Source: an uncultured Pseudomonadota bacterium
GTDB lineage: Bacteria > Myxococcota_A > UBA796 > SXON01
Reading direction: 5' to 3'
DNA: 64,000 bases
Assembly: GCA_903921785.1 (NCBI GenBank)
Contig: CAIXRH010000252.1
Coordinates: 1 to 64,000 of the forward strand
Shown: in pieces, positions 26,626 through 47,055 of the stretch
Layout: every line of letters starts with the position of its first letter
How positions within the stretch are numbered: the first letter of the stretch is position 1
Position numbers and translations under genes: made by a program
Notes under the pieces: model-generated
Told to the model about the DNA's origin: nothing
Database searches by the model: none
What the model saw: the letters and a program-made list of their open reading frames with translations, nothing else

Positions 26626-26721
26626 GCCCGGAAGTGGGCCAGCCCGAAAGTGGGCCAGCCCGAAAGTGGGCCAGCCCGAAAGTGGGCCAGCCCGAAAGTG
26701 GGCCAGCCCGAAAGTGGGCCA
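26626..26721 (+). repeat. Tandem array, six copies of a 16-bp unit
   Basis: Five identical units of GCCCGAAAGTGGGCCA (26642-26721) follow one variant (GCCCGGAAGTGGGCCA, 26626-26641) without spacers. Each unit contains a GCCC/GGGC pair and could form a small hairpin. A single related copy occurs at 9603-9620. Confidence 0.85.
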
Positions 26722-26899
26722 GCCGTGTGACGTCGCCGGCGGCGGGCGGAGCGGAGCGACCGCCCGTGGATGACGGCGGCCGGCCGCGTAGGAGGGCCCA
26801 GCGCCGACACTCACTGTTTCCGCGGCTACAACGGTGAGACCTGCGACGACGGGAATCCCGCCTCCCGGGCGCCGCGTCTTGCCGGGCGAGCGGTGGTCA

Positions 26900-26916: not shown

Positions 26917-26961
26917 CCGATCCCAGGCTCGGGATACCTGCGCCCGTTGCCTGAGCGCCCG

Positions 26962-29900
26962 ATGCCCGATCCCGTTGTCCCTCCGTCGTCGCCTCCCGTC
27001 GCCCCCGCGCCTGGGGTGGAGGTGGAGGTCACCGTCGCGCCGACGCTGAACTTCGCGATGGAGCAGTCGGGGGTGCCGTTGGTGTCGGGGTTGCGGGTGC
27101 GCAACTCGGGTGCCGAGCCGTTGGTGGGCGCGGTCTTCTCGATCCAGCTCGAGCCGGAGCTCGGGCCGCCCACGACCGTGGCGATCGAGACGTTGCGGCC
27201 CGGGGAGGAGGCGTGGCGCCCGGTCGTGGACGTACGGCTCCCGCCGGGGCGCTTGCGCGGCCTCGTCGAGGCGGAGCGGGCCCGGGCCTCCTGGACGCTC
27301 ATCTGCGGGGACGCGCAGCTCGCCGCTGGCGAGGCGCCCGTGGAGGTGCTCGCGTTCCAAGAGTGGCCCGGGTTGCGGGCGCCGCCGGCCCTGGTCGCGG
27401 CGTTCGTCATGCCGAACCACCCGGTCGTCGGGCAGTTGCTCGGGAAGGTCCGGGACCAGCTCCAGGCGCGCACGCAGGACCCGTCGATCAGCGGCTACCA
27501 GACGCGGTCGCCCAAGCGGGTGATCGAGCAGGTGGAGGCGTTGGTGGCGGCGATCCAGTCCATGGGCGTCACCTACGTGGGGGTGCCGGCGAGTTTTGAG
27601 TCGGTGGGGCAGAAGGTGCGCCTGCCCGACATGGTGCTGTCGGAGGGGATGGGCAACTGCCTGGACATCTCGGTGCTTCTCGCGGGGTGTCTGGAGCAGA
27701 TGGGGCTCGCGCCGTTGGTGGTGGTGGTGAAAGGCCACGCGTTCCCTGCCGTGTGGCTCGTGGACGACCGCTTCCCCGAGGGCGTGGTCCACGATGCCGC
27801 TCGCCTGCGCACGCTCGGGAAGCTCGGGCAGGTGCTCGTCTTCGACAGCAGCACCGTGGTCCATGGATCGCGTCCGCCGTTGGCCGCGGCGGTGGCGGCG
27901 GCCGACGCCTATGTGGCGGACGACGCCAACTTCGTCTGTGCGGTGGACGTTCGGGTCGTGCGCATGGACCGCTTCCGGCCGCTGCCGGTGCGGATGACCG
28001 TCGCCGCGGAGGAGGCGCCGAGCGCGACCTCCACCCTGGCCGCCCAGGCGCTGCTCGACCAGGCCCGCCGCGTCCCCGAGCCGGCCGCCGCGCCCGCGGG
28101 GCCGCCGCCCCCGCCCGAGCCGATCGTCGCCCGCTTCAAGCGCTGGCGGGACAAGCTCCTCGACCTCTCGCTGAACAATCGCCTGCTCAATTACCGGCCC
28201 ACCACCAAGGCGTCGCTGCCGCTCCAGGTGCCGGACCTCGCCCGCTTCGAGGACCTCCTCGCCAACGACGTGGCCTTCGAGGTGCTCCCCCGCCCCGACG
28301 TGGACCCCCGGGACCAGCGCGACGAGGCCCTGGTGAAGGCCCGGGGCGATGAAGCGGAGCTCGAAGCGCGCCGCCGCGCCGACCTCGACCGGAGCCTGCT
28401 CTACGCCGGGGTGACCCGCGAGGAGCTGCTCGTGCGCGCGGTGGAGCTCGACCGCGCCGCGCGCACCGACCGCGAGGAGGGCGGCGCCAACACGCTCTTC
28501 GCGGCGATCGGGATGCTGCGGTGGTTCGAGAGCCCGTCGAGCGAGCTGCCGCGCCTCGCGCCGCTGATCCTCGTGCCCGTGCGGCTGGAGTACGACCGCG
28601 TCTCCCGGCGGATCCGCCTGCGCCGGCTCGACGAGGAGTCGGTGGGCAACGTGACGCTCGCGGAGAAGCTGCGCCGCGACTACGCCGTGGACCTCTCGGC
28701 GCTCACGGCGCCCGACCTCGACGACCACGGCCTGGACGTGCCGGCGCTCCTGCGGCGGGCCCGCGAGGCCATCCAACAGACGCCGCGGTGGGAGGTGCTC
28801 GACGAGGTGCACCTCGGCCTGTTCACCTTCACCAAGTTCCTCATGTGGAAGGACCTGGACAGCAACGCCGACGCGCTCTTGCAGAGCCCGGTCGTGCGCC
28901 ACCTCGCCCAGGGCGGGCTCGTCCCGTTCCAGGACCCCGTGGGCGCCCCGGACGCCACCCGCCTCGACGACGACGTGCCGCCTTCCGCGCTGCCCACGGT
29001 GCTCGACTGCGACTCCACGCAGTTGTCCGCGATCTCCGCGGCGCTCCGCGGGCGCAGCTTCGTGCTCCAGGGCCCGCCCGGGACCGGGAAGTCGCAGACG
29101 ATCACCAACCTCATCGCGGCGGCGCTCGGCGAGGGCAAGACGGTGCTCTTCGTATCGGAGAAGATGGCCGCGCTCGACGTCGTGCATCGCCGCCTCCTCG
29201 CCGCTGGCCTCGGCGACTACTGCCTGGAGCTGCATTCCAACAAGGCGAACAAGAAGGAGGTTGCGCTCTCGCTCGGCCGCGCGCTGGACCGGGTGGGGCG
29301 CCCCGCCGACAGCACCTGGGACACCCGCTCCGGCGAGCTCGGGGGCGTGCGCGCCCAGCTCAACGGCTACGCCAGGGCGCTCCACCAGCCTCGCTCGCTC
29401 GGGCGCACCTTCTACGAGGCGAGCGCGCGGCTGCTGGAGTTGCACGCGGCGCCGGAGGTGGCGGTGCCGCTCGCCGATCCGGCGGGGCTCACGGCGGAGC
29501 GGTGGGCCGCGATGGAGCAGGCGCTCGATGCGTTCGCCACCGCGGCGGCGGAAGTGGAGCCGGCGCCCGGACACCCCTGGCGCGCCAGCGCCGCCGTGGC
29601 GTGGAGCGCGGGCGGTGAACAAGCGCTCGTCGACGCGATCACCGCCGCTATCGCCGCGGTAGACGCCGATGATGCGGCGACCGCCGCCCTCGCGGCGGCG
29701 TTGGGCATCTCCCCCACGCCGTCGCCCGCGCTCCTCGCGCTCGGCGCGGCCGTGGGGGAAGGTGCGTCCCCCGCCGCGGTCTTCGCGCCCACGTGGCCGA
29801 CGGACCTCGCCCGGGCACGAGCCTGGGTGACGGCCGCGCGGGAAGAGCGGGATCAGCGGGCCGATCTCGCCTTGCGTTGGCAGCCCGGCCTGCACCACCT

Positions 29901-32793
29901 CAACCTCCCCGGCCTCTTCGGGTCGTTCCGCTCCTGGGCCGGCGCGTTCTTCCTGTTCGCGTGGCTGTTCTTGTTCCTTCCGAAGCAGAACCTCGGCACC
30001 GTGGTGCGTGGGCGCCTCCCGCCGGACGCGCAGATCACCGCCGACCTCGGGGTGGCGCTGGCGCTGCGGCGCGCGCGGGAAGCGCGCGAACGGGAGCAGG
30101 CGTGGGCCGCCGCGACGTTCGCCGGACATTGGGAGGGCGCCGATCCGGACACGCTCGCAGCGCTGCTCGACCGCGTGGAGCGGCTCCGGTCGGCGCTTGC
30201 CGGCTGGCGCGCGGACGCGCTCCCGGCCCCCGAGGTGGCGCTCGCTTTGGTCGACGCCGCGGTCCCCTCCGCCCGTCGAGACGCGGTTCGGGACGCGGCC
30301 GCCCGCGCCACCGAGTGTCGTCGTACGGCGGACGCCGCACGGGCGAGCGTGCAGCAGCTTGGCGCGCTTACGCTCCCGGCGGACGCCCGGCCCGCGCTCA
30401 CCGCGCTGCTCCAGGCGCGGCCGCTCTTCCGGAAGTGGGTGTTCTACCGGCGGGCGGGCGCCGCGGTGGAGGCGCTCGGCCTCGCCGCGGTGGTGCGGGC
30501 CCACGAGGCGGGGACCGTGCCTGCCGCGCAGGTGGGCGTCGCCGCCGAGCGGGCGCTCCTGAGCCGGTGGGTCGCGGCGATCCGCGACGGCGAACCGGCG
30601 CTGCGCGACTTCGACGGGGCGGAGCAGGGACGCCGTGTGGCGCGATTCCGGGAGCTGGACCGCGGCCACATCACGCTTGGGCGCCAGCGGGTGCTCGCGC
30701 GGCTGGACGCGCGGCGGCCCGGCACGGGCGGGGTGGTCCCCGAAGGCTCGGAGACGGGGATCGTCGGGCGCGAATCGAAGAAGCAGCGCGGCCACTGGCC
30801 GGTGCGGAAGCTGCTCCTCGCCCTGCCGAACCTGCTGCCGCGGCTCAAGCCCTGCCTGCTCATGAGCCCGCTCTCGATCGCCCAGTACCTCCCGGCGGGC
30901 GGGCGCCGCTTCGACCTCGTGGTGTTCGACGAAGCGTCGCAGATCGGCACCCACGACGCGATCGGCGCCATCGCCCGAGGCGAGCAGGTCGTGATCGTCG
31001 GGGATTCGCGACAGCTGCCCCCGACGACGTTCTTCACCCGGGACACCGAGGAGGAGAGCCTCCCCGACGACAACGACATCGTGGAGATGGAGAGCATCCT
31101 CGACGAGGCGATCGCCTCGCGGCTCCCCGAGCAGATGCTCGGGTGGCATTATCGGAGCCGCCACGAGGCGCTCATCGACTTCAGCAATCGGCACTACTAC
31201 GACAATCGGCTGAATGTCTTCCCGGCGGCGCGGGGGAAGGTGGCCGACCTCGGGGTGCGCTGGCACGGCGTGCCCAATGGCGTCTACGACAAGGGGCGCA
31301 CCCGGCAGAACCGCGCGGAGGCGGAGGCGCTGGTCGGTTGGCTGGTCCGAGAGTTGAGACACACGGCGGCCGGAGCGCGGACCTACGGGGTCGTCACGTT
31401 CAGCGTTCCGCAACAGACGCTGATCCAGGACATGCTCGACCGGGCTCGCGGCGAGCACCCGGAGCTCGAGCCCCACTTCGCGGACGGGAACCCCGAGGCG
31501 GTCTTCGTGAAGAACCTGGAGAACGTGCAGGGCGACGAACGCGACGTGATCCTCTTCTCCATCGGGTACGGTCCGGACGAGGCGGGGAAGGTGTGGATGA
31601 ACTTCGGCCCCCTCAACCGGAAGGGCGGCGAACGGCGGCTCAACGTGGCGGTCACCCGCGCCCGGCGCGCGCTGCATGTTTTCTCGACACTGACCGCTGA
31701 CCACGTGGACCTCTCTCGCACCACGGCGCTCGGCGCCCGGCACCTCAAGGCCTTCCTCCAGTACGCCATGGAGCGCGGCTCGGGCAGCGCCCGGGTGGTG
31801 CAATCGGCGCCCTTCGAGAGTGAGTTCGAGCGGCAGGTGCACGACGCACTGGTGGAGTTGGGCTACACCGTGGACGGGCAGGTCGGCTGTGGCGGCTATC
31901 GCATCGACCTCGCCGTGGTGCACCCCGACCACCCGGGGGAATACCTGCTGGGTGTGGAGTGTGACGGCGCGCCGTACCACTCGGCGGCCACCGCCCGCGA
32001 CCGCGATCGGCTGCGTCAGCAGGTGCTCCAGGACCTCGGCTGGCGGCTGCACCGGGTGTGGTCGACCGACTGGTGGTTCGACCGCGCGGGGCAGGTGGCG
32101 AAGCTGGAGGCGGCGGTGCGCGAGGCGCTGGCGGCGCCGCGGGAGGCCCCGCCCGAGGTGGACCTTCCCGAGCCCGAAGAAGAGGAGCCGGCGGCCCCGC
32201 TCGTCGCCGCGGTTCGTCCGGCCGAACCCTCGCCGGTGGTGCCCTACCGGCTCGCCGTGCTCGCGCCGGTGAGCGCGGACCCCGAGACGATGTACGTGGC
32301 CGCGGCCACTCCGGCGATGCTCGAGCGGGCGCTGGCGGTGATCGCCGCCGAAGCGCCCCTGCGCGTGGACGAGCTCTGCCGGCGGGTCTCGAGCTGCTGG
32401 GGCGTCGGCCGGGTGACCAGCCGCGTGCGCAGCCGCGTGGGCGAGGTCCTGGCGGTGCTCGGCCGCGAGGGGAAGTTGGTGATCCGGGGCGACTTCGCGT
32501 GGGCGCCCGGCTCGGACCCGGCCGTGTGGGCCACGCTGCGCGGCGCCGACGCCGACGGGGGCCTGCGGGACGCGGAGGCGATCCCCCCCGAGGAGATCGC
32601 CGCGGCGGCGGCCTGGGTGCTCGCCCGCACCCTCTCACTCGACGAGCCCGCGCTCGCCCGCGAGGTCGCCCGGCTCTTTGGGCTCACCCGCCTCGGCCGC
32701 AAGGTGGACGAGGCGATGCGCGTGGGGATCGAGCTCCTGGTGAGCCGAGGGAAAGCGGCGCGTGAGGGGGAGCGGGTGGCGTGGCGGGGGTGA
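26962..32793 (+). CDS. Transglutaminase-like/DUF4011/SF1 helicase/Vsr-like nuclease protein
   Basis: A 1943-residue multidomain protein. Residues about 140-310 contain GNC233LD, GH259AF and FD295SS, the Cys-His-Asp order of transglutaminase-like proteases. About 390-690 is the DUF4011 region (RWRDKLLDLSLNNRLLNY at its start). The SF1 helicase core has Walker A GPPGTGKS (704-711), a long helical insert (800-1200), Walker B FDEAS (D1323), GDSRQLPP and VTRARR near 1563. Residues 1618-1705 form a Vsr/MTES_1575-type nuclease (YRIDLAVV, then GVECDGAPYHS), and 1750-1850 match DUF3320. DUF4011-helicase-Vsr proteins are linked to phage defence in several computational surveys. ATG 26962 is used; TTG 26947 is possible. 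The segment upstream holds repeats; no methylase or other defence gene is adjacent. Confidence 0.85.
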   Translation: MPDPVVPPSSPPVAPAPGVEVEVTVAPTLNFAMEQSGVPLVSGLRVRNSGAEPLVGAVFSIQLEPELGPPTTVAIETLRPGEEAWRPVVDVRLPPGRLRGLVEAERARASWTLICGDAQLAAGEAPVEVLAFQEWPGLRAPPALVAAFVMPNHPVVGQLLGKVRDQLQARTQDPSISGYQTRSPKRVIEQVEALVAAIQSMGVTYVGVPASFESVGQKVRLPDMVLSEGMGNCLDISVLLAGCLEQMGLAPLVVVVKGHAFPAVWLVDDRFPEGVVHDAARLRTLGKLGQVLVFDSSTVVHGSRPPLAAAVAAADAYVADDANFVCAVDVRVVRMDRFRPLPVRMTVAAEEAPSATSTLAAQALLDQARRVPEPAAAPAGPPPPPEPIVARFKRWRDKLLDLSLNNRLLNYRPTTKASLPLQVPDLARFEDLLANDVAFEVLPRPDVDPRDQRDEALVKARGDEAELEARRRADLDRSLLYAGVTREELLVRAVELDRAARTDREEGGANTLFAAIGMLRWFESPSSELPRLAPLILVPVRLEYDRVSRRIRLRRLDEESVGNVTLAEKLRRDYAVDLSALTAPDLDDHGLDVPALLRRAREAIQQTPRWEVLDEVHLGLFTFTKFLMWKDLDSNADALLQSPVVRHLAQGGLVPFQDPVGAPDATRLDDDVPPSALPTVLDCDSTQLSAISAALRGRSFVLQGPPGTGKSQTITNLIAAALGEGKTVLFVSEKMAALDVVHRRLLAAGLGDYCLELHSNKANKKEVALSLGRALDRVGRPADSTWDTRSGELGGVRAQLNGYARALHQPRSLGRTFYEASARLLELHAAPEVAVPLADPAGLTAERWAAMEQALDAFATAAAEVEPAPGHPWRASAAVAWSAGGEQALVDAITAAIAAVDADDAATAALAAALGISPTPSPALLALGAAVGEGASPAAVFAPTWPTDLARARAWVTAAREERDQRADLALRWQPGLHHLNLPGLFGSFRSWAGAFFLFAWLFLFLPKQNLGTVVRGRLPPDAQITADLGVALALRRAREAREREQAWAAATFAGHWEGADPDTLAALLDRVERLRSALAGWRADALPAPEVALALVDAAVPSARRDAVRDAAARATECRRTADAARASVQQLGALTLPADARPALTALLQARPLFRKWVFYRRAGAAVEALGLAAVVRAHEAGTVPAAQVGVAAERALLSRWVAAIRDGEPALRDFDGAEQGRRVARFRELDRGHITLGRQRVLARLDARRPGTGGVVPEGSETGIVGRESKKQRGHWPVRKLLLALPNLLPRLKPCLLMSPLSIAQYLPAGGRRFDLVVFDEASQIGTHDAIGAIARGEQVVIVGDSRQLPPTTFFTRDTEEESLPDDNDIVEMESILDEAIASRLPEQMLGWHYRSRHEALIDFSNRHYYDNRLNVFPAARGKVADLGVRWHGVPNGVYDKGRTRQNRAEAEALVGWLVRELRHTAAGARTYGVVTFSVPQQTLIQDMLDRARGEHPELEPHFADGNPEAVFVKNLENVQGDERDVILFSIGYGPDEAGKVWMNFGPLNRKGGERRLNVAVTRARRALHVFSTLTADHVDLSRTTALGARHLKAFLQYAMERGSGSARVVQSAPFESEFERQVHDALVELGYTVDGQVGCGGYRIDLAVVHPDHPGEYLLGVECDGAPYHSAATARDRDRLRQQVLQDLGWRLHRVWSTDWWFDRAGQVAKLEAAVREALAAPREAPPEVDLPEPEEEEPAAPLVAAVRPAEPSPVVPYRLAVLAPVSADPETMYVAAATPAMLERALAVIAAEAPLRVDELCRRVSSCWGVGRVTSRVRSRVGEVLAVLGREGKLVIRGDFAWAPGSDPAVWATLRGADADGGLRDAEAIPPEEIAAAAAWVLARTLSLDEPALAREVARLFGLTRLGRKVDEAMRVGIELLVSRGKAAREGERVAWRG

Positions 32794-34598: not shown

Positions 34599-37500
34599 AT
34601 GCGTGGCCGCGAGGAGCGCGTGGCGAGCGCATTCGGCATCCCCCTCGGCCCCTTCCGGCTCACCGGTCGCCTCGACCAGGGCGGCATGGGGCAGGTGTGG
34701 CATGCCGTGCACGCCGCGAGCGGCCTACCGGTCGCGGTGAAGCTCATCCGGGAAGATCGCCCGGAGCTGGCCGAGCCCTTCCTCGAGGAGGTGCGCGCCG
34801 TCGCCCGCCTGGACCACCCGAACATCATCACGGTGCTCGACTGCGGGCGCATCGACGCGCCCACGCACGCCGCATCTGGGGGCAAGCTGGTGCTCGGCAG
34901 CCCGTGGATGGCGATGGAGTATTGCTCGGGCGGCACGCTCGGCACTTCACCGCCGCGTACCTGGGACGAGCTGCGGGTCGTGCTCGCAGACCTCCTCTCG
35001 GCCCTCGCCTATGCCCACGCCCGCGGCGTCCTCCACCGCGACCTCAACCCCGAGAACGTGCTCCGCGCCACCGCCGAGGACGCCCGCCCGGGCCGGAAGC
35101 TCACCGACTTCGGCCTGAGCACCCCGTTCTCCCACGCCGAGGCGGGGGTGATCGTGGGAACCCCGGCGTACATGGCGCCGGAGCAGCTCCGGGCCGAGCT
35201 CGGCGGGCAGGGCCCGTGGACCGACCTCTACCAGCTCGGCTGCCTCGCGTGGGCGCTCGCTGCCGGCGCGCCCCCCTTCGGCGCCAACCGCCCGGCCGCC
35301 GTGCTCGCCATCGCCCACCTGGAGGTGGAGCCCCCGGCGTTCAATCCACGTTTCCGGGTGCCGAGCGGCTTTGAGGGGTGGCTCCGGAAGCTCCTGGTGA
35401 AGGACCCCCAGCGGCGCATCCAGCACGCGGCCGACGCCGCCGCCACCCTGGAGGCCGTCGAAGGTTCTGGCGCGTTCTCCCTGGGGGTTCCGCCCACGTG
35501 GCAGTCCGCCGACCCGCCGCGGATGCCTGCCCGCCTCGTAGACGCGGGGCTCGGCGTCCACGCGCTCCGCCCGGTGCCGATCGTCGGCCGCCACCTCGTG
35601 CGGGACCGCCTCTGGGGCGCGCTCCGGGAGGTGAACGTGGCCTGGGCCGCGCGCGCCGTGCTCCTCCATGGCGCGGCCGGCGTGGGCAAAAGCCGCCTCG
35701 CCCGCTGGCTCGGCGAGCGCGCGCATGAGCTCGGTCACGCCCACGTGCTGCGGGTGGAGGGCACCGACGGCCCCCTGGCCCTGGAGCGGCTGTACTCCCG
35801 CCACCTCGGGGTGCCGCTGGCCGACGAGGCGGACGTCACGCTCCCGCCGGCGTCGGCGCCGGGCGGGATCGCCGCGTTGGCGGACCATCCGCGCATCCAG
35901 CGGGCGCGGCGCTTCGTGGAGGGGGTGGCGACGGAGCGCCCGGTGGTGCTGATCCTCGACGACGTCCACCGCTCGGTGGAGGCGCTGGCGCTGGTGTGGG
36001 CGCTCTGCGGGGAGGATTCGGCGGCGCCGGTGCTCGCGGTGCTCACCGCCCGGTCGGACGGGCTGGCGGAGGCGCCCGCGGAGGCGGAGGCGCTGGCCGC
36101 GCTGGCCGCCCGCGTGGAGCTGGATCGGGTGGAGCTCGGCCCGCTCTCGTCCAGCGAAGAGGCGGAGCTGATGGGACCCGGGCTCGGACTGGGCGCCCCC
36201 CTGGCGCGGCGCCTGGCGGGGACGGCACGCGGAAACCCGGGGATGGCGGTGGCCGCCGTGGCGCACCTCGTGGACCGCGGCGCGCTCCGTCCGGCGCCCG
36301 GCGGCTTCGAATCCCCGCCCGCCGTGCCCCTGGAGCTCTCCGAAGCGCAGCTCGCCCCGTGGAGCGACCGCCTCGCCCGGGCGCTGCGCCGCTTCCCGCT
36401 CGACCCGGCCTTCGAGTGCCTGGAGGCCGCCGCCGTCCTCGGCGACCCGGTGGACGAAGCGGAGTGGGCCGCCCTCTGCCGCAAACGCCAGCTCCGGGCG
36501 CCGCCCGCCTTGGTGGAGGCGCTGGTGCGCGAGCGACTCGCGGTGCCCGTGGAGGGCCCGAGCGACGCGATCCAGTGGGCGTTCGCCCACCCGATGTTGC
36601 GGGAAGCGCTGGTCCGTCGTGCCGTCGCGGGGCGCCGCTCCACGGTGTTGCACGCGGATGCGGCGGCCCTCCTCCTCGCGCGGGCCCGCGAGGGGGGCAC
36701 GCCTGACCTCGCCCGCGTCGCCACCCACCTCGCCGGGGCCAACCAGGCCGGCGCCGCGCTCGACACCTGGCTCGCGGCGGTGGAGCACCACGCCGCGGTG
36801 GACGACTGGGCCGGCGTCGTCGGCGAGGTGGCGGCGGCCTCCGCCGTGCTCGCGGGGATGGCCAGCGCGCCGGACGACGAACGCCGCCTGAAGGTGGAGG
36901 TGTGGCGGCTCCGGGCGCTCGCCCGCGGCGCGCTCGGCGCCGAGGGCGCGGACGCGGTGCTGCAGGCGGCGCGCGGGCTGGAGAAGGTGGTCGAGGAGGC
37001 GCGGGCGCGGGCTTGGCCCGAGGTGCTCGCGCAGGCGCTCTTCGCCCGGGCGGCCTTGGCGGATCGCCAGGGAGATGGTGCCGGCGCGGCCACGCGCCTG
37101 GCCGAGGCCCGCGCCGCGGCGTGGGCCGTGGGGGACGAGCGGCTCACCGCCCGGGCTGATCTGGGGCTGGCGCGGGTGGCCGTGCGGCGGGCGGAGTTGG
37201 GCCCGGCGCGCACCCGGGGCGAGGAGGTGCTCGCGGTGGCGTCGCGGCACGACGACCGGCGGCTCCTCGGCGAAGCCCGTGTGCTTTTGGCGGACCTGGA
37301 GCGCCGGGCCGGCCAGGCTGTACGCGCCGAGGCGCTCGCCCGGGACGCGTTGGCGCTGGCGGGGCCGCGCTCGCAGCGCCCGGCCACCGCGGCGGCGCTG
37401 GTGGTGCTCGCGGACCTCGAGCGCGACCGCGCCCGGTTCGACGCCGCGATCGCCGGCTACCGCCGCGCGCTGGAGCTCTTCGAGGAGCTCGGCGACGACG

Positions 37501-37886
37501 AGGTTCTCGCGGTGACGGCCCGGCTCGGCGCGCTGCTCATCGAGCGCGGCCGGGACGACGACGCGCGACAGGTGCTCGGCGCCGGAGTGGCGCTGGCGCT
37601 ATGCCAGGGCATCCAGGGCCCACGCGCGCGGCTGGACGTGCTCGCCGCGAGCGTCGCCGTACGCCACGACGAGGCGGGTGCGGTGGCCGCGCTCCTGGAG
37701 GCGGCGGCGCGGCTGGACCGTTGGGGCTGCGTGGAGCCCGACCTCATCCTGGCGTTGGCGACGGCGGAACGTCACCTCCGCGAAGCTGCTGGTCGCGCGG
37801 GCCGCCCGCCGCCGCCGGCCTGTGCGGAGCTCACCCGTCGGGTGGTGAGCTGGAGCGCGGCGAACGTGAGGGCGGCGGTGGGGTGA
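34599..37886 (+). CDS. Ser/Thr protein kinase fused to AAA ATPase and TPR-like region
   Basis: A 1095-residue regulator with no TM segment. The kinase domain covers about 18-290: glycine loop GRLDQGGMGQVW, K48 in VAVKL, catalytic loop HRDLNPEN (146-153), DFG at 170-172 and GTPAYMAPE at 187-195. The usual lysine of HRDLKPEN is N150. Residues 325-560 form a STAND/AAA-type ATPase with GAAGVGKS (358-365) and ILDDVH (452-457), and 650-1085 is an all-helical array of TPR-like repeats. Such fusions are typical of myxobacteria and act as stand-alone signal integrators. The true start could be GTG 34620; ATG 34599 is used. It diverges from rlmD and converges on the SGNH gene. Confidence 0.87.
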   Translation: MRGREERVASAFGIPLGPFRLTGRLDQGGMGQVWHAVHAASGLPVAVKLIREDRPELAEPFLEEVRAVARLDHPNIITVLDCGRIDAPTHAASGGKLVLGSPWMAMEYCSGGTLGTSPPRTWDELRVVLADLLSALAYAHARGVLHRDLNPENVLRATAEDARPGRKLTDFGLSTPFSHAEAGVIVGTPAYMAPEQLRAELGGQGPWTDLYQLGCLAWALAAGAPPFGANRPAAVLAIAHLEVEPPAFNPRFRVPSGFEGWLRKLLVKDPQRRIQHAADAAATLEAVEGSGAFSLGVPPTWQSADPPRMPARLVDAGLGVHALRPVPIVGRHLVRDRLWGALREVNVAWAARAVLLHGAAGVGKSRLARWLGERAHELGHAHVLRVEGTDGPLALERLYSRHLGVPLADEADVTLPPASAPGGIAALADHPRIQRARRFVEGVATERPVVLILDDVHRSVEALALVWALCGEDSAAPVLAVLTARSDGLAEAPAEAEALAALAARVELDRVELGPLSSSEEAELMGPGLGLGAPLARRLAGTARGNPGMAVAAVAHLVDRGALRPAPGGFESPPAVPLELSEAQLAPWSDRLARALRRFPLDPAFECLEAAAVLGDPVDEAEWAALCRKRQLRAPPALVEALVRERLAVPVEGPSDAIQWAFAHPMLREALVRRAVAGRRSTVLHADAAALLLARAREGGTPDLARVATHLAGANQAGAALDTWLAAVEHHAAVDDWAGVVGEVAAASAVLAGMASAPDDERRLKVEVWRLRALARGALGAEGADAVLQAARGLEKVVEEARARAWPEVLAQALFARAALADRQGDGAGAATRLAEARAAAWAVGDERLTARADLGLARVAVRRAELGPARTRGEEVLAVASRHDDRRLLGEARVLLADLERRAGQAVRAEALARDALALAGPRSQRPATAAALVVLADLERDRARFDAAIAGYRRALELFEELGDDEVLAVTARLGALLIERGRDDDARQVLGAGVALALCQGIQGPRARLDVLAASVAVRHDEAGAVAALLEAAARLDRWGCVEPDLILALATAERHLREAAGRAGRPPPPACAELTRRVVSWSAANVRAAVG

Positions 37887-45615: not shown

Positions 45616-45704
45616 TTTCGGGCGGGATCGCGCCCCGGGCGGCGGTCGCAGCCCGGGGCGCCCGCCGTCGCGATGGAAGAAATGAAAGCGATCGGCCTGA
45701 CCCC
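45593..45704. repeat. 112-bp palindromic element (REP/BIME-like) upstream of RAYT
   Basis: GGGGTCAGGCCGATCGC (45593-45609) and its perfect complement (45688-45704) bound the element. Inside, GCGCCCCGGGC (45630-45640) and GCCCGGGGCGC (45651-45661) form a second perfect stem around a ten-base loop. The whole can fold into one long two-tier hairpin. It starts within the 3' end of the DUF457 gene and ends 40 bases before the RAYT start. Confidence 0.8.
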
Positions 45705-45744
45705 CCTCTTGCCGCGGCGGGCCATCGTGAACATCTGTTCACCC

Positions 45745-47055
45745 ATGCCCCGCAAGCCTCGCCTCGACGTCCCCGGCGCCGTCCACCACGTGATGAACCG
45801 TGGCGCCCGCCGCGCCGCCCTCTTCGCCGAGGCGTGGGTCTGTCAGCTCTTCCTATCGGTCCTGTCCGAGCTGCCCGCCCGCTTCAACGTCCGCATCCTC
45901 GCCTACGCGATCATGCCGAACCACTACCATCTCCTCCTGGAGTGTCCCGACGGCAACCTCTCCCGCGCGATGCAATACCTCGGCGGAGAATTCACCCAGC
46001 GCCTCAACCGCATCCAGGCCTGGGACGGGCCGGTGTTCCGTGGCCGCTTCCTCAGCCGCCTCGTCGACAGCGACGCCTACTTCGCGCACGTCCTCGCGTA
46101 CATCCACCTCAACCCGGTGCGCGCCAACCTCGCCAAGACCGCCCACGCGGCGCGGTGGACGAGCCACGCCGCCCTCGTCGGCCGCGAGCGCCGACCCGCG
46201 TGGCTCGCGGCGGGCACGATCGAGCGGCTCTTCGGAGATCGTAAGACCTACCTGGACTACCTCGCCTCCTGCCTCGGAGACGCGCCTCCCCAACCCCCTG
46301 GCTGGGACCCCGAGCACGTGTGGGCCGCGCCGCGCCGGCCCCCCGCGCTTCCCGTCGCCCCCCGCCCGGCGGTGGACGTCGACGCCCTCCTGCTGACCGT
46401 CGCGACCGCGGCGAGTGTTCCGCTCGCTGAGCTCCGCCACGCTCGATCCGGGCGCCGCGGCAACCCCGCCCGGGCGTTCGCAGCGTGGTGGTTGGGGCGC
46501 CGCACCACGCTGACGAACGGACAGATCGCGGAACACCTGGGCTGTTCCGCCGCCCGGGTGTCTCAGCTTCGCCGTGAGGTTCCCCGCCAGGAGCGGCGGT
46601 TCGCGGCGATCTCCCGGCGCGTCGAGACGCTGCCACTGCCGCCGTCCTCGCCGCCGCCGTCCTCGCTTCCATCGTTTCCACCGCCGCGGCCCGCGCCTGC
46701 GCCGACCTGCGTGCGGAGCCCGGCGCCGCCCGCGCACGCTTCCCTCGACTTCCGGTATTCGTGGACGCCGGAGGCCTCGCTCGTGCTGCGTGACGCCGCG
46801 TGTCGGACGCCGTTGTCCGAAGACGCCACCACGCCGGGGTCCGCCGCTCGCCCGGCACCGCCTAAACCCGCCACGGAGCCCGGGTTGGCCCTTCCTGTCC
46901 AGCGGCGCGTTCCGGACGATCGCGACACGCTTCGCTCCGCGTTGACCGAGATCTCCGCGCCGCCCCGAACGCTGGCGCCTGCCCCGCCGACTCCTGACCG
47001 GCCGCGCGATACCCTCCCCCGATGCTCTCCCTCCTCCTCGGCTGCACCTCCCTGA
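45745..47055 (+). CDS. REP-associated tyrosine transposase (RAYT, Y1/HUH family)
   Basis: A 436-residue HUH single-strand nuclease. Residues 1-140 are the transposase IS200/RAYT core: VHHVMNRG near the start, MPNHYHLLLE with the metal-binding H60-Y61-H62, GPVFRGRF, and YIHLNPVRA whose Y119 is the likely nucleophile. RAYTs cut and move or maintain REP palindromes. Residues about 215-310 resemble a DnaA-type helix-turn-helix (LRHARSGRRGNPARAFAAWWL, QIAEHLGCSAARVSQL), an add-on known in some RAYTs. The last 130 residues are Pro/Ser-rich and overlap the next gene by 34 bases. ATG 45745 is chosen, because in-frame codons further upstream lie in the palindrome. Confidence 0.88.
   Translation: MPRKPRLDVPGAVHHVMNRGARRAALFAEAWVCQLFLSVLSELPARFNVRILAYAIMPNHYHLLLECPDGNLSRAMQYLGGEFTQRLNRIQAWDGPVFRGRFLSRLVDSDAYFAHVLAYIHLNPVRANLAKTAHAARWTSHAALVGRERRPAWLAAGTIERLFGDRKTYLDYLASCLGDAPPQPPGWDPEHVWAAPRRPPALPVAPRPAVDVDALLLTVATAASVPLAELRHARSGRRGNPARAFAAWWLGRRTTLTNGQIAEHLGCSAARVSQLRREVPRQERRFAAISRRVETLPLPPSSPPPSSLPSFPPPRPAPAPTCVRSPAPPAHASLDFRYSWTPEASLVLRDAACRTPLSEDATTPGSAARPAPPKPATEPGLALPVQRRVPDDRDTLRSALTEISAPPRTLAPAPPTPDRPRDTLPRCSPSSSAAPP
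47010..47015 (+). promoter_or_regulatory. -10 like hexamer TACCCT, leaderless start
   Basis: TACCCT lies six bases before the ATG at 47022 and within the 3' end of the RAYT gene, giving the esterase gene its own promoter. Confidence 0.5.

Follow-up and report, generated by a model that had tools for sequence, protein, structure and literature searches.

A ProA-family helicase-nuclease with a transglutaminase-like N-terminal domain predicted to act as a thiol enzyme

The window analysed here is the whole 64,000-nucleotide stretch taken from contig CAIXRH010000252.1 of an uncultured bacterium. It carries a long gene on the forward strand that encodes a multidomain helicase-nuclease. The frame is open already from a TTG at 26947, and the ATG at 26962 is the putative start. 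The G+C content is 0.77, 0.51 and 0.93 at first, second and third codon positions, a pattern that agrees with coding on the forward strand, and a 1,857-residue antisense open reading frame was discarded as a shadow of the high GC. The gene is real, intact and bacterial, and it is the only ProA copy in its source genome. Its features are as follows.

26962..32793 (+), ProA-family helicase-nuclease gene: 1,943 aa from the ATG at 26962, stop at 32793
27019..27351 (+), β-sandwich (Ig-like) N-terminal domain, residues 20-130: seven strands in the AlphaFold2 model (pLDDT ~92-97), β-sandwich matches in Foldseek
27361..27999 (+), transglutaminase-like (TGL) domain, residues 134-346: AlphaFold2, Foldseek and weak DUF553/Transglut_core matches in relatives
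27658..27660 (+), codon of C233, predicted TGL nucleophile at a helix N-terminus: conservation and model topology
27736..27738 (+), codon of H259, predicted TGL catalytic His at a strand start: conservation and model topology
27844..27846 (+), codon of D295, third triad position (Glu in most relatives): conservation
27994..28131 (+), Pro/Ala-rich linker, residues 345-390: mean column conservation 0.34, 35-70 residues long in relatives
28153..28671 (+), DUF4011, residues 398-570: Pfam PF13195, E 2.7e-38
29011..29250 (+), first part of the SF1 helicase, Walker A GPPGTGKS at 704-711: Pfam AAA_11 at 684-763
29272..30831 (+), poorly conserved insert inside the helicase, residues 771-1290: mean column conservation 0.41
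30844..31761 (+), second part of the SF1 helicase, DEASQ at 1323-1327 and AAA_12: Pfam AAA_12 at 1378-1574
31825..32115 (+), Vsr-like MTES_1575 REase, residues 1622-1718, with D1649, E1666 and D1668: Pfam PF18741, E 4.3e-37
32299..32433 (+), DUF3320 winged helix, residues 1780-1824: Pfam PF11784, E 2.1e-11, wHTH assignment from PMC3710099

A long insert divides the helicase, with about 610 residues separating Walker A (704-711) from DEASQ (1323-1327). For comparison, 79 loci were collected in one scan of genome contigs and more in whole-genome and plasmid searches, and 89 non-redundant full-length relatives of 31-77% identity were used. In these 89 relatives the stretch corresponding to positions 760 to 1300 has a median length of 551 residues, and the insert has a mean column conservation of 0.41 against 0.71 for residues 1295-1600. 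The original prediction, made from the sequence alone, had described one chain with a TGL-like domain, DUF4011, a split SF1 helicase, a Vsr-like nuclease and DUF3320, and this architecture is borne out by Pfam together with AlphaFold2 and Foldseek.

The neighbouring genes encode a PLP-dependent enzyme, a xanthine-dehydrogenase-type enzyme (upstream), a tRNA/rRNA U5-methyltransferase-like protein and a Ser/Thr kinase; as first proposed, neither a restriction methylase nor a partner gene flanks the helicase-nuclease gene. A PADLOC search for a defence island in the window found none, and the matches obtained for neighbouring genes (kinase PD-T4-6, XPB helicase PbeA, methyltransferase mad2) were rejected as defence evidence because they are generic. 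Among genomes of the same genus, one carries the upstream xanthine-dehydrogenase gene at 89% identity with no ProA adjoining it on an 8-kb contig, and another has a ProA of 69% identity among different neighbours. Within the class, matches above the ProA cut-off are present in 8 of 71 genomes. The architecture occurs on plasmids and in many proteobacterial and Myxococcota-like genomes, and the N-terminal module was found on 79 plasmid records. With this patchy presence, broken synteny and plasmid carriage, the distribution of ProA is that of a mobile gene and not of a housekeeping one, so that the housekeeping context weighed in the original prediction does not apply.

Several other features of the window were recorded. 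The gap upstream of the gene contains a tandem array (26626-26724) with 6.2 copies of the 16-bp unit GCCCGAAAGTGGGCCA, a repeat that recurs at two further sites of the genome (C142 and C249). The gene at 34599-37886 (+) encodes a protein that joins a Ser/Thr kinase to an AAA ATPase and TPR repeats, an arrangement typical of the group, with generic PADLOC kinase matches only. An IS200-like (Y1) transposase gene lies at 45673-47055 (+).

NCBIfam release 20.0 (June 2026) contains the equivalog NF058533 (NF058533.1), ‘anti-phage protein ProA’, with a cut-off of 1500 bits. The window protein matches this model at 1939.7 bits, from model position 1 to 1903 of 1903 and over protein residues 30-1910, so that the N-terminal region is covered. 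By this profile match the protein is a member of an already named family and not a new kind; no family-level difference from ProA was detected, and other members outscore it (for example, locus L014 at 2182 bits). PADLOC returned a match to its candidate PDC-S37 of 1336.9 bits over residues 387-1938; the matched region begins C-terminal of the TGL head. Both matches agree with the earlier assignment of the protein as likely antiphage, and anti-phage activity would follow from NCBI's family label. Membership of the DUF4011 anti-phage family Hhe (NF042953) was rejected at 843.9 bits against a cut-off of 2000 bits. The helicase and REase portions of Hhe are related to those of the window protein, and Klebsiella pneumoniae plasmid records annotated as hhe match it from about residue 500 onwards, which leaves out the TGL head.

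Proteins of this general type have been described before. Anantharaman et al. (2013; PMC3710099) reported giant HEPN-transglutaminase-SF1 helicase-Vsr-wHTH proteins, in which the wHTH overlaps DUF3320, noted that modification genes are absent from them, and proposed that the TGL domain serves as an extra line of defence through protein cleavage. The window protein has the TGL domain, SF1 helicase, MTES_1575-type Vsr REase and DUF3320/wHTH in common with these giants, exemplified by Microbacterium testaceum MTES_1575, and likewise lacks a modification gene. Whereas the 2013 giants carry HEPN, the AlphaFold2 model of the window protein starts with a β-sandwich instead, and Pfam gave no HEPN family match in it. 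The original prediction held that peptide cleavage or binding by a protease-like N-terminus was a mechanism not known to be described for this group. This claim of novelty fails as regards the proposal, because Anantharaman et al. had already suggested cleavage of proteins by the TGL domain; our literature search found no experimental reports of such cleavage in these giants.

The N-terminal region was modelled with AlphaFold2 from an alignment of 39 relatives. Residues 20-362 achieved a mean pLDDT of 91.8 and form a seven-strand β-sandwich followed by an α/β domain, in which a helix has C233 at its N-terminus and the strand that comes next opens with H259. In Foldseek the two-domain model matched mainly β-sandwich and transglutaminase entries. 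Since β-sandwich matches dominated this search, the TGL domain was modelled by itself (residues 134-346; pLDDT 91.8, pTM 0.91), and its PDB matches came mostly from the TGL superfamily, with a best E-value of 1.0e-3 and TM-scores of 0.25-0.43. They include the putative protease 3kd4, TgpA, PNGase, 3isr, TglA, CPR-C4 and menin, the last being a TGL fold that serves peptide binding. The fold is therefore not an unrelated one, the outcome that had been set against the original prediction. The domain appears to share fold class and order of catalytic residues with TgpA, PNGase, TglA, 3kd4, 3isr and menin, at very low sequence identity and at the low TM-scores given above, and none of these is another fusion to a DNA enzyme.

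The evidence from sequence is weak but agrees with this assignment. No Pfam transglutaminase model matched the window protein at its gathering score; among the 39 relatives, weak matches were found to DUF553 in 20 (best E 0.002) and to Transglut_core in four (best E 0.0073). When solved structures were searched by sequence, the whole protein retrieved only helicases and the N-terminus nothing useful. The protease-like front end is genuine and is normal for the ProA family.

Alignment of the relatives shows that all three active sites are conserved across the family. The Cys and His of the TGL site are invariant in the first 39 relatives and are both present in 83 of the 89. At position 295, 87 relatives carry an acidic residue (Glu in 64, Asp in 23), one carries Asn and one Pro. 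The Walker A Lys is present in all 89, the Walker B Asp-Glu pair in 88 and an intact nuclease Asp-Glu-Asp in 80. The triad named at the outset (C233, H259, D295) was correctly numbered and is kept in relatives, and on this evidence it is not a product of chance.

The TGL Cys/His pair is altered to Ala/Gly in L151, to Pro/Gly in L152 and to Ala/Met in L153 and L185, which belong to one clade. In addition, L162 has Gln in place of His together with a Walker B Glu-to-Ala change, and L204 has Ser in place of Cys; both keep the nuclease site. The nuclease glutamate is lost as well in L151, L152 and the L153/L185 clade, where the helicase motifs are retained. Hence three of the five lineages without a TGL site have also lost the nuclease site while keeping Walker A and B. 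Among the 89 proteins, both sites are intact in 78, only the nuclease is altered in five, only the TGL site in two, and both in four. The association has a raw Fisher p of 7e-4, or 5e-3 when the L153/L185 clade is counted once. On a tree built from helicase columns, however, the five TGL losses yield five independent pairs with a median p of 0.5, which places significance out of reach. Joint decay of the two sites is suggestive of functional coupling and is a hint of it, not proof; strict co-loss as a proven pattern was rejected because the number of events available to the test on the tree is too small. The linker between TGL and DUF4011 has no invariant residue in the alignment of relatives, and thus shows no sign of a conserved self-cleavage motif.

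Three relatives with altered sites deserve separate mention. L153:10572-16385 (+) and L185:7356-13163 (-) encode a ProA relative of 1,936-1,938 aa that has lost its TGL and nuclease residues and kept its helicase motifs, and the chromosomal surroundings are shared between the two genomes concerned. This relative looks domesticated, and one of the two genomes (G994) also holds an intact ProA (L175). The third is L134 (MT836269.1), from an unverified contig labelled ‘Bacteriophage sp.’ from human faeces, which encodes a full-length relative with an altered nuclease site (Glu to Ile).

We propose as the probable reading that the protein is a single-chain anti-phage helicase-nuclease of the ProA family whose TGL head is a thiol enzyme working with the nuclease. 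The DUF4011-SF1 motor and the C-terminal DUF3320 winged helix would engage invading DNA and translocate along it, and the Vsr-like MTES_1575 nuclease would cut it. The β-sandwich-TGL head would act together with the nuclease as a peptidase or acyl transferase, either by unleashing the nuclease or, in the role of a second effector, by attacking protein. The roles of motor and nuclease are suggested by their domain families and the family name, that of the TGL head by conservation; we infer the defence function from the family name, and infer likewise the DNA substrate and the direction of coupling. That the head is an active thiol enzyme is predicted, on balance, from its residues, and Cys-His-Glu is also kept in lipoprotein-like exported homologues of the module and in those fused to a CHAT-like region. 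Counting against this reading are the joint loss that is not significant on the tree, the linker free of a cleavage motif, the low TM-scores and the lack of a defence island at the locus. L162 and L204, which keep the nuclease, and the five members that keep the TGL site with an altered nuclease, also count against it.

The main alternative is that the TGL head is a non-catalytic sensor of the same fold, which would bind a peptide or protein of the phage, as menin binds peptides, and gate the helicase-nuclease. We consider this possible, though unlikely. The domain and the helicase do remain in five lineages that have lost catalytic residues, menin is among the Foldseek matches, and no self-cleavage motif is conserved in the linker. 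Pure binding, however, would not need a Cys, a His and an acidic third residue held so widely across 31-77% identity, and the exported homologues keep Cys-His-Glu. Moreover, TGL losses mostly coincide with nuclease loss, and so may mark proteins that abandoned effector function altogether.

The gene neighbourhoods of relatives bear on how far the system extends. Of 71 informative non-redundant relatives, 23 have ProA next to genes for a metallophosphoesterase like Mre11/SbcD and an ATPase like Rad50/SbcC (L014:13943-17694 (+), L015:3133-7808 (-), L034:3338-7953 (-) and 20 other relatives). In the codirectional form (15 loci) the pair lies downstream on the same strand, overlapping or nearly so, and encodes 374 and ~883 aa; in the divergent form (eight loci) it lies upstream and encodes 408-462 and 1,150-1,160 aa, as called. 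The two forms of the pair have only distant kinship, and the divergent one is found in separate branches of the tree, with one case, L034, close to the clade of the window protein. Such loci are found in numerous alphaproteobacteria, along with a small number of other lineages. Neither NCBIfam nor PADLOC has a specific system name for these partners, and a full-text search covering part of the literature found no described system of this make-up. The window gene stands alone, without the pair. The one-gene system of the original prediction therefore holds at this locus but not family-wide, since roughly one in three informative members has the pair alongside.

A stronger version of the thiol-enzyme reading couples the two activities strictly. 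Cleavage by the TGL site of the protein itself, or of a phage or host protein, would be obligatory for nuclease action, and in certain lineages, many alphaproteobacteria among them, the Mre11/Rad50-like pair would extend the unit to an undescribed three-gene system. Under such obligatory cleavage both active sites would decay together while the helicase persists. We put this forward tentatively and regard it as doubtful.

The same neighbours invite a different reading, in which the family would serve DNA repair or genome maintenance together with Mre11/Rad50-type complexes and would not be dedicated to defence. The pair beside 23 of 71 relatives and the nuclease- and TGL-dead relative in one chromosomal setting of two genomes (L153, L185) fit this view, as may a large DUF4011 gene reported from all P. 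aeruginosa isolates (PMC10250203). It is nevertheless improbable in light of the NCBI anti-phage equivalog, the patchy distribution with broken synteny and the carriage on plasmids; SMC/Rad50-like ATPases also occur in the defence systems Wadjet and Lamassu (PMC10586767). Finally, a merely superficial likeness to transglutaminases, with an unrelated helical-β domain at the N-terminus, would suit the missing Pfam match and the low TM-scores but is very improbable given the conserved Cys-His-Asp/Glu spacing, the placing of Cys where a helix begins and of His where the next strand begins, the TGL-dominated Foldseek matches and the DUF553/Transglut_core matches in relatives. Anantharaman et al. 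(PMC3710099) likewise assigned a TGL domain to this architecture.

The gene is thus an ordinary member of a named family, and it is the family that brings together, in one chain, a DNA motor, a nuclease and the fold of a thiol enzyme. Its protease-like part has been a prediction since 2013, which conservation, dead-site variants and neighbours now make testable. Attention is deserved by the role of the TGL site and by the Mre11/Rad50-like neighbours, which suggest that a multi-gene form may exist, one for which neither NCBIfam nor PADLOC has a name.

The β-sandwich-TGL module was also seen in other proteins. Within the same phylum it occurs in exported proteins, lipoprotein-like and Cys-rich, with Cys-His-Glu intact (L102, L103, L104, L106-L110, L188). 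Elsewhere it stands behind a CHAT-like (caspase-like) region, again with Cys-His-Glu intact, at L155:2121-4394, L205:5198-7573 (-), L206:3650-6001 and L207:7432-9720 (-); Pfam gave one weak CHAT match (E 0.012), in L155. An α/β-hydrolase-like gene (DUF7379) directly follows the fusion in L155 and L207, and in L206 a gene of metallo-β-lactamase fold lies upstream of it.
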